From Acidobacterium sp. S8 (GTDB lineage: Bacteria > Acidobacteriota > Terriglobia > Terriglobales > Acidobacteriaceae): a DNA stretch of 64,000 bases. The stretch's first letter is position 1, and every line of letters begins with the position of its first letter. The DNA lies in assembly GCF_009765985.1 (NCBI RefSeq), contig NZ_LMUM01000034.1, forward strand, positions 345,508-409,507, read 5' to 3'. Both the position numbers and the translations under genes were made by a program. Below, in pieces: positions 32,961 through 43,430 of this stretch. The notes under the pieces are model-generated. The model was not told where the DNA came from and did no database searches. It saw only the letters and a program-made list of their open reading frames with translations.

Positions 32961-33118
32961 GTCATTCTGAGCGTAGCGAAGAATCCATAAGATGCAGACA
33001 CTACCTATACTCCATACGGCTTCTGACAAAATTGTTTTCCAGAAAAACTCGTTCTGCAAACTTAAATTTATCGCTGGAAACAGTTCACATAGATTCTTCA
33101 CTGCCCTCAGGATGACAT
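32961..33118. repeat. Two-arm inverted repeat element, GTCATTCTGA family
   Basis: Left arm GTCATTCTGAGCGTAGCGAA plus GAATCC (32961-32986). The right arm (33090-33118), read in reverse, is ATGTCATCCTGAGGGCAGTG plus AAGAATCTA. The arms flank about 100 bp of AT-richer sequence with no ORF. The layout resembles a REPIN or MITE. It sits immediately upstream of the frameshifted GIY-YIG gene and within the 32921-33545 gap that separates etfA from ETF-QO. Confidence 0.65.
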
Positions 33119-33136
33119 CCGATTAATCTCAATTCC

Positions 33137-33528
33137 ATGAGACGAGGCTGGGTATATATTCTCTGCGGTCGAACCGGGACGCTCTACACAGGAGTTACAA
33201 GTAATCTTTATAACCGAGTGCTGGAACACCGCAGCGTATCAAATCCGGCTTCGAGTCAAAATATAGTTGCAATCGTCTGGTTTATTTTGAAGAGTTCGGC
33301 GACATCACTTCGGCCATAGATCGCGAAAAGAAGATCAAAGGGTGGACCAGGGCGAAGAAGCTGGAACTGATTGAATCGAAAAATCCGGAGTGGCGTGATC
33401 TAGCGATCCATTGGGGAAGACAGATGCTGATGCCACATCAAAGTATCCACGAAGAAAACGAACGGCAGCAAGGCCGCATTCAGCTTCCCATGGATTCTTC
33501 CCCTTCACTACGTTCAGGGTCAGAATGA
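33137..33528 (+). pseudogene. GIY-YIG endonuclease-like gene, frameshifted
   Basis: Starts MRRGWVYILCGRTGTLYTGV, a clear GIY-YIG core (VYI...YTG with SNLYNRVLEH). After about codon 35 the frame loses homology. One base out of phase, from about 33241, the family's second half continues without stops: GFESKYSCNRLVYFEEFGD, then AIDREKKIKGWTRAKKLELI and NPEWRDL. The frames differ by a one-base deletion (or two-base insertion) between about 33229 and 33247. The shifted frame runs through a repeat arm to TGA 33526-33528. A sequencing error remains possible. Intact relatives are single-domain UvrC/YhbQ-like nucleases of uncertain role. Confidence 0.8.
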
Positions 33529-33530
33529 CG
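33491..33530 (-). repeat. Dispersed repeat arm overlapping GIY-YIG 3' end
   Basis: Read on the minus strand: CGTCATTCTGACCCTGAACG, then AGTGAAGGGGAAGAATCC. Same family as the arms at 32961-33118, 26334-26368 and 43350-43430. It forms the last codons of the frameshifted GIY-YIG frame and ends 15 bp before the etfA stop. Confidence 0.65.
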
Positions 33531-34587: not shown

Positions 34588-34630
34588 GGGTGCCCCAATT
34601 CTTTCGCGTTTTTTTTGCGAAAGGGTGGGA
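34588..34630. repeat. Palindromic repeat, GGGTGCCCCA family (copy 1)
   Basis: Begins GGGTGCCCCAATTCTTTCGC, then a run of eight T, then GCGAAAGGGTGGGA. Self-complementary arms CTTTCGC/GCGAAAG. It shares both flanks with 62997-63036. It lies in the 112-bp gap between the small membrane protein gene and etfA, inside the etf operon, where a transcript hairpin could affect the relative output of etfB and etfA. Confidence 0.7.
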
Positions 34631-34638
34631 GACGACCC

Positions 34639-43349: not shown

Positions 43350-43430
43350 CCATCATTCTGACGACCGAAGGAAGGAAAAATCTCAAGCCCGCTTCATTAG
43401 AGATTCTTCGCCTGCGGATCAGAATGACGG
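43350..43430. repeat. Two-arm inverted repeat element, GTCATTCTGA family
   Basis: Left arm CCATCATTCTGACGACC...GGAAAAATCTC (43350-43384). The right arm (43400-43430) in reverse reads CCGTCATTCTGATCCGCAGG plus CGAAGAATCTC. A 15-bp spacer separates them, so the unit folds into an imperfect hairpin. It lies between the convergent queE and 43468-44115 genes and could also serve as a bidirectional terminator. Confidence 0.7.

Follow-up and report, generated by a model that had tools for sequence, protein, structure and literature searches.

Stand-alone GIY-YIG nuclease genes are associated with tagged hairpin repeats across bacterial phyla and may form REPtron-like mobile units with them

We show that stand-alone genes for GIY-YIG nucleases are bordered by tagged hairpin repeats, and that this association is real, specific and widespread. 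Because gene and repeats come and go at the same chromosomal places, the gene may be the missing partner of the repeats. Probably, the nuclease and the tagged hairpins that border it make up a widespread two-part mobile unit, REPtron-like in kind, with the nuclease as its putative agent. The locus from which the analysis departs lies in a 64,000-nucleotide stretch of DNA from Acidobacterium sp. S8 (hereafter, the window), which belongs to contig C27 of genome G000 (5.4 Mb, 38 contigs).

Three hairpin arms and a broken GIY-YIG gene are found at the window locus in the order '> < gene <'. A preliminary description had placed a GIY-YIG gene amid copies of the same repeat, and the arms indeed lie around it, at 32961, 33116 and 33529. 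The left arm (32961..32985, plus strand) consists of a CGTC tag and the hairpin GTCATTCTGAGCGTAGCGAAGAATC, followed by CA. The second arm (33092..33116, minus strand; G000:C27:378599-378623) faces the left one, and its head, GTCATCCTGA, has one mismatch to GTCATTCTGA; together, both arms form a REP dimer of 156 bp (32961-33116). The third arm, GTCATTCTGACCCTGAACGTAGTGAAGGGGAAGAATC on the minus strand (33493..33529), is the outer end of the unit, which spans 32961..33529 from arm end to arm end. The tags of the three arms are CGTC, TGTC and CGTC. The sequence GTCATTCTGA occurs three times in the 64 kb, compared with 0.22 copies expected, and none of 100 shuffles reached three. Another arm pair, with one mismatch in its left head and without a GIY-YIG gene, is located at 43352..43428. 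The unit is flanked by two ORFs that we take, from their translations, to be an electron-transfer-flavoprotein oxidoreductase-like ORF on one side and an etfA-like ORF on the other.

The gene opens at 33137, 20 bp after the repeat pair (a gap of 18 bp had been given before). Its first part (33137..33319, plus strand) is a 60-aa open frame that encodes the GIY/YIG half of the domain, and PF01541 matches this half with 24.8 bits (cut-off, 22.6). The second part (33240..33528, plus strand; start approximate) lies in the +2 frame. The product reads MRRGWVYILCGRTGTLYTGVTSNLYNRVLEHR in the first frame, then KSGFESKYSCNRLVYFEEFGD...REKKIKGWTRAKKLELIESKNPEWRDL in the +2 frame. Alignment with the homologue of a congener (G060), an open frame across the whole domain, reveals a single one-base gap, in agreement with the single frameshift proposed. 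The window copy, its domain split by a frameshift, is a dead or decayed member of the gene and repeat system, as had been suspected. The window genome also has an intact GIY-YIG gene (L001), which lies between tpiA- and pgk-like genes and has arms on both sides; an additional weak PF01541 match (L003) has no arm. The last codons of the window gene (...MDSSPSLRSGSE*) are translated third arm, as the preliminary description had noticed, and the stop codon TGA (33526-33528) is supplied by the ATGAC of that arm. Its further point, that stand-alone GIY-YIG proteins in other genomes often end in translated repeat, also found confirmation: an arm head falls within the last coding stretch of 20 of 69 ORFs of 85-220 aa, and in 9 of those 20 the stop codon is formed at the same place of the arm as in the window.

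The arm can be written as a tagged hairpin, GTC-ATYCY-GA-[variable stem-loop]-GA-RGRAT-C. Covariation shows that the arm is held as a hairpin. Among 250 distinct arms of the family that have a recognisable tail, both variable pairs are kept in 241, one in 9 and none in 0; among 154 arms from the named loci, the figures are 147, 7 and 0. Heads without a tail within 75 nt were set aside (40 of 290 distinct heads in the family, 57 of 211 at the named loci). Covariation replaced folding energies as evidence for the hairpin, since energies were strong for two of six arms only: single-strand DNA folding yielded the expected hairpin in five of the six, of which only two folded much better than shuffles. 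Four of the six reached no better than z -0.5 to -1.0, and one of these four did not adopt the expected hairpin. In the acidobacterial arms that were folded, a short outer stem of 5 bp is followed by a GA/GA step, which is conserved, and by an inner stem, which varies; the alphaproteobacterial arm has a 9 bp stem and a 5-nt loop. A search of three genomes with the G060 arm pair gave matches elsewhere that were confined to the arms of about 40 bp and left the spacer unmatched. The possibility of a conserved MITE was therefore dropped, as the repeats share the arms but not the spacer.

To measure the association, 60 genomes of the window's family were sampled together with the window genome, giving 84 PF01541 matches in 80 stretches. 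Matches of UvrC length were left out (with one exception, which was dropped from the 83 counted), and so were roughly ten weak or long ones. An arm was scored if a GTCATYCYGA head lay within 200 bp of an ORF of 85-220 aa (n=69, including the L036 ORF in spite of its internal stop). Arms were found at 57 of the 69 GIY-YIG ORFs, compared with 16 of 288 size-matched control ORFs (Fisher test applied), and on both sides at 51 of 69 versus 0 of 288, the controls being greedy, non-overlapping ORFs of the same stretches, chosen mechanically rather than annotated genes. Among 430 control ORFs of at least 200 aa, 39 had an arm and 4 had arms on both sides. The layout is not uniform: 37 of the 69 ORFs show the '>gene<' orientation, and 10 the '<gene>' orientation. 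In a midpoint-rooted FastTree phylogeny, read irrespective of supports, the arm-bordered genes make up one large group that includes some members without a strict arm. Near-variant arms were recognised by eye at several genes that lack a strict one (GTCATGCTGAGC at L090 and L094, GTCACCCCGAGC at L102). One stretch (L050, G027:C11) holds two highly similar GIY-YIG genes about 620 bp apart, with arms at each.

Searching species genomes with a seven-sequence profile matched at least 588 stretches, with at least 581 relatives. The best 80 of these 588 or more came from Acidobacteria, Chloroflexi, Patescibacteria, Bacteroidetes, Clostridia, Gemmatimonadetes, Verrucomicrobia, Alphaproteobacteria and others. 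With the head pattern unchanged, an arm was detected at 55 of 74 evaluable GIY genes and arms on both sides at 38 of 74, compared with 29 and 1 of 221 control ORFs. A pattern-free score of inverted repeats between both flanks exceeded the 99th percentile of 160 controls at 24 of 69 loci, once 11 of 80 loci too near a contig end had been dropped. When flanks were swapped between loci, 0 of 69 exceeded that percentile.

We call "class 1" the stand-alone GIY-YIG genes of about 95-145 aa that score at least 90 bits to the family profile. An arm or another flanking repeat is present at 61 of 63 class 1 genes of the family, versus 202 of 2094 control ORFs, and at 42 of 51 in other phyla, versus 15 of 185, among the matches listed; here the controls include overlapping ORFs and are not annotated genes. 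The sample from other phyla is a part of the matches listed: 30 loci and 54 regions from 29 genomes (L280-L363). Genes of an intermediate score band (60-90 bits) were kept apart, with an arm or repeat at 1 of 5 in other phyla and 6 of 6 in the family. When GIY genes of every class in the 29 genomes are taken together, 23 of 82 evaluable ones have the strict arm, versus 10 of 100 controls; the hairpins of other lineages differ (for instance, GTCATTCCCGCGAAGGCGGGAATCC and GTCATTGCCCGGCTTGACCGGGCAATCC), and the rhizobial and alphaproteobacterial form of the arm is CGTCATCCTCGGGCTTGACCCGAGGATCCA, with a CGTC tag. The association anticipated in the preliminary description is hence strong in the family and present in other phyla, and in view of such enrichment neither of the outcomes held to speak against it (no enrichment, or an association limited to this locus) was observed.

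Of 33 plasmid records with a relative, six were opened (Sinorhizobium, Rhizobium, two from Shinella, Sphingobium and Planktothrix), and hairpins were seen by eye on both sides in all six. The Planktothrix plasmid (L267) has its GIY-YIG gene among several arm pairs, between a MmeI-type restriction gene and the DISARM gene drmA. In Flavobacterium G090 (L316), 15 PF01541 matches are found, of which four cluster in about 8 kb, and hairpins of the ATTCCTGCG...CGGGAAT type border some of them. A viral origin was considered as well and dropped, as a scan of viral contigs with one narrow peptide pattern returned 56 stretches and 0 relatives.

Comparison of related genomes revealed intact, arms-only and empty sites; the preliminary description had proposed to look for intact copies and empty sites. 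At the window site, G000 has gene and arms, G060 only an arm pair, and G061 and G062 no arm. G060 carries a homologous unit at another site (on contig C37), with the same layout and with DNA that is 75% identical along the greater part of the gene; judged by eye, the similarity between the two units begins at GTCATT and ends at ATGAC, which are the arm ends. At the tpi-pgk site, G000 and G061 have gene and arms, G062 has a shortened, 85-aa frame with arms, and G060 retains an internally deleted remnant, made of the gene start only, between two decayed arms.

Sites of this kind are also found in Alphaproteobacteria. In Sphingobium TomTYG46, the unit lies between fnrL and a response regulator gene. 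Strain TomTYG73 has the same unit, in which the gene carries a one-base gap and no CDS is annotated, and five additional Sphingobium strains match the entire query. At the same site, TomTYG64 and TomTYG74 contain a single palindrome that resembles the outer halves of two arms joined together, which reads GTCACCCCGGG-TCAAG-CCCGGGGTGAC in TomTYG64. Other hairpins are found there in TomTYG72 and TomTYG65. In Sinorhizobium, strain K101 has a similar palindrome, with a changed left tag, and more arm-like pieces where Ak57 has the gene. In Shinella, WSC3-e and HZN7 carry the unit at a place where H4-D48, S. oryzae and S. sumterensis lack both gene and arms; the right flank there aligns poorly. In three strain comparisons, inspection by eye revealed no evident target-site duplication. 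As an observation apart, L276 and L275 show unrelated hairpins at the fnrL/response-regulator place of related Sphingobium, as if the site took any hairpin.

Double-ended palindromes are rare. By an exact pattern, which misses the K101 palindrome with its changed left tag, the 1.0-Mb TomTYG64 record has a single one, located precisely at the site without the gene, the S. oryzae record has one, four other records (TomTYG74 left out) have none, and five acidobacterial genomes have 0-3 each. The idea that such palindromes are a common pool of targets was rejected for their rarity by exact patterns. Given this rarity, the hybrid palindromes look like scars, presumably left by gene loss through recombination between arms.

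The upstream and downstream arms of one element are more alike (0.77, 50 elements) than arms of other co-resident copies (0.57), a relation found in 26 of 30. Terminal inverted repeats, as in insertion sequences, are present, in that own arms are alike and 24 of 69 loci exceed the 99th percentile of controls. Among co-resident copies, arm similarity tracks protein similarity (r 0.63 over 49 pairs, a value reached by 0 of 2000 shuffles made within genomes), a correlation to which recent duplication can add. Between genomes, arm and protein similarity are weakly correlated (r 0.10; 53 of 2000 shuffles reach r). Arm load was compared between 14 genomes with class 1 genes and 13 with a single PF01541 row, hand-picked and at least 90% complete: the median is 20.8 arms per Mb with a class 1 gene and 3.2 without (P 0.0009). 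One genome without a stand-alone GIY gene, G032, holds 158 arms.

The residues Y6, Y16, G18, R26, E63 and N82 are invariant in 26 sequences; presumably, they play the catalytic roles of the conserved Tyr, Tyr-x-Gly, Arg, Glu and Asn of the GIY-YIG domain. PF01541 scored above its cut-off in all eight relatives that were scanned. No separate DNA-binding domain (NUMOD or other) was detected in these eight proteins with Pfam at E values up to 0.1; additional matches were overlapping GIY-YIG-like models and one weak DUF. The NCBIfam model grpIintron_endo stayed below cut-off in three of five proteins. The nearest solved structures by sequence are the UPF0213 proteins 1zg2 (E 6e-10) and 1ywl (E 5e-7). 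Class 1 proteins share a single minimal GIY-YIG domain with UPF0213 and prokaryotic Slx1-like stand-alone proteins; however, they have an invariant C-terminal Asn (N82) that is absent in Slx1 according to the consulted part of the superfamily classification by Dunin-Horkawicz et al. (2006). In that same part, hairpin repeats are not mentioned and 'palindrom' occurs 0 times. The dN/dS ratio is 0.055-0.144 in seven of ten pairs, those with finite dS; the remaining three are saturated for dS, and several of the seven come close to it. By this measure, class 1 genes are under strong purifying selection. Taken together with arm load, purifying selection suggests that the gene is kept for its activity and that arms can outlive the gene, as would be expected of a REPtron-like pair.

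Altogether, a mobile pair with the nuclease as its agent seems the most economical reading, in which cutting and copying are the inferred steps. The nuclease would recognise an extruded hairpin with an unpaired GTC foot, either in single-stranded DNA at a replication fork or in a cruciform, and might cut there. Repair of the break from another copy would then spread arms, pairs of arms and, at times, the gene as well. Gene-less arm pairs would be non-autonomous members, and recombination between arms could remove the gene and leave a hybrid palindrome behind.

The arms are reminiscent of the CGTC-tagged REPs described by Di Nocera, De Gregorio and Rocco in 2013 (PMC3733652). In the sections of that paper at hand, these REPs have a CGTC or TGTC tag, a stem that opens with A-T pairs and a CCA tail; they occur in several phyla, as pairs in opposite orientation, with a stem of 8-9 bp and a loop of 4-5 nt. 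The arms found here share the unpaired tag, the first stem bases and the tail, and the alphaproteobacterial CGTCATCCTCGGGCTTGACCCGAGGATCCA fits the description, stem and loop included, unlike the acidobacterial arms, which lack a stem and loop of those sizes. Both kinds of repeat are also alike in lacking an associated Y1 gene (here, 2 of 27 Y1_Tnp loci are near an arm). They differ in that a GIY-YIG gene is the partner here and none figures in the 2013 description as far as consulted, where CGTC REPs 'lack a dedicated transposase' and the term GIY-YIG has a count of 0. Whether and by what enzyme CGTC REPs are maintained was left open there (PMC3733652); the GIY-YIG nuclease is a candidate in bacteria of many phyla.

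Likeness to RAYT-REP and REPIN systems lies in many-copy tagged hairpins that occur in pairs, and in a gene for a DNA-cutting enzyme bordered by its own repeats. Differences with the GTAG REPs and their TnpA-REP are the enzyme, GIY-YIG and not Y1/HUH, and the tag, GTC(A) and not GTAG. Hence, the parallel with RAYT-REP drawn in the preliminary description stands for the anatomy, and its other half, a nuclease that moves the repeats, is something we infer. Among the matches listed in open-licence PMC, we found no paper that joins GIY-YIG to REP-type repeats by title, abstract start or term counts, and 'nuclease', 'transposase' and 'RAYT' have 0 occurrences as word starts in the consulted portion of a 2025 REP survey (PMC12306157). 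If the mobile pair is real, proteins whose sole annotation is 'GIY-YIG nuclease family protein' would gain a function, and the RAYT-REP theme would have a second solution, unrelated to the first. A broader proposal, which we advance tentatively and rate slightly below an even chance, is that mobile hairpins throughout bacteria (the CGTC superfamily and relatives) might be spread by a minimal GIY-YIG nuclease instead of a transposase: the extruded, tagged hairpin would be cut and copied by repair, each nuclease lineage would be matched to its own hairpin, and a sister class would do likewise with tRNA-derived hairpins.

Homing endonucleases of the I-TevI type have a GIY-YIG catalytic domain and show patchy presence and absence at fixed sites. 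Both traits are found here. Differences are that no further Pfam DNA-binding domain accompanies class 1 (eight proteins) and that its genes are bordered by hairpin repeats. An unlikely alternative is a homing-type parasite, whose nuclease would dock at existing hairpins and copy itself alone while the repeats moved by other means. A parasite of this sort would agree with arms that far outnumber genes, with arms-only and gene-bearing alleles at one site, and with the persistence of arms in genomes that lack the gene. However, genomes with the gene have a higher load of arms, and each copy tends to have its own matching type of arm even among co-resident copies; furthermore, the double-tagged palindromes that might be its intact targets are rare by an exact pattern (one that misses K101's).

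The nuclease might otherwise have been domesticated by the host, which would keep it beside the repeats to trim or resolve hairpins (for instance, by removing cruciforms), without mobility. Strong purifying selection and conservation of the tpi-pgk position in three of four genus members are in agreement with such a role, which nevertheless seems improbable to us in view of the patchy presence of the gene, its several divergent copies per genome, the decayed and internally deleted copies, and the different sites occupied in congeners.

Movement of the repeats by RAYT (Y1/HUH) transposases of the same genomes, with the GIY gene as a passenger, is very improbable. Y1_Tnp matches do exist in 12 of 15 genomes searched. 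However, an arm lies within 450 bp of the domain at only 2 of 27 Y1_Tnp loci (30 were fetched, and 3 truncated ones set aside), compared with 56 of 67 GIY loci by the same measure in 15 genomes, and G034 and G019, without a Y1 match, hold 237 and 101 arms. The Y1_Tnp genes of the window genome lie elsewhere than the window unit. A different repeat lies on both sides of a Y1 gene in G060 and of another in G056, and on one side of one of the three Y1 genes in G000. Two repeat systems, each with a gene of its own, seem to coexist. The 2013 account, in the sections consulted, likewise has no tyrosine transposase gene flanked by CGTC repeats (PMC3733652). Coincidence between hairpin repeats and small genes, both of them common between genes, would explain an arm on one side of some control ORFs (16 of 288), and its probability is negligible when both sides are considered (0 of 288 controls versus 51 of 69 GIY-YIG ORFs) or flanks are swapped (0 of 69 above the control threshold versus 24 of 69 with own flanks). 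Control-ORF, swapped-flank and Y1_Tnp counts led us to reject both chance and RAYT. A copy of the Y1-associated repeat is also seen in the window, at 34612-34636.

GIY-YIG genes of a second class, which are shorter (median length 87 aa in the 29 genomes from other phyla), adjoin tRNA genes. A tRNA gene is found within 150 bp of 14 of 26 such genes in other phyla, versus 2 of 185 control ORFs, and of 5 of 12 in the family, versus 9 of 2094. Loci of this class are L051, L054, L042, L073 and L113 in the family, and L361, L362, L322, L324, L342, L288 and L293 in other phyla. In several second-class genes, a tRNA-like direct repeat was seen by eye on the far side of the gene.
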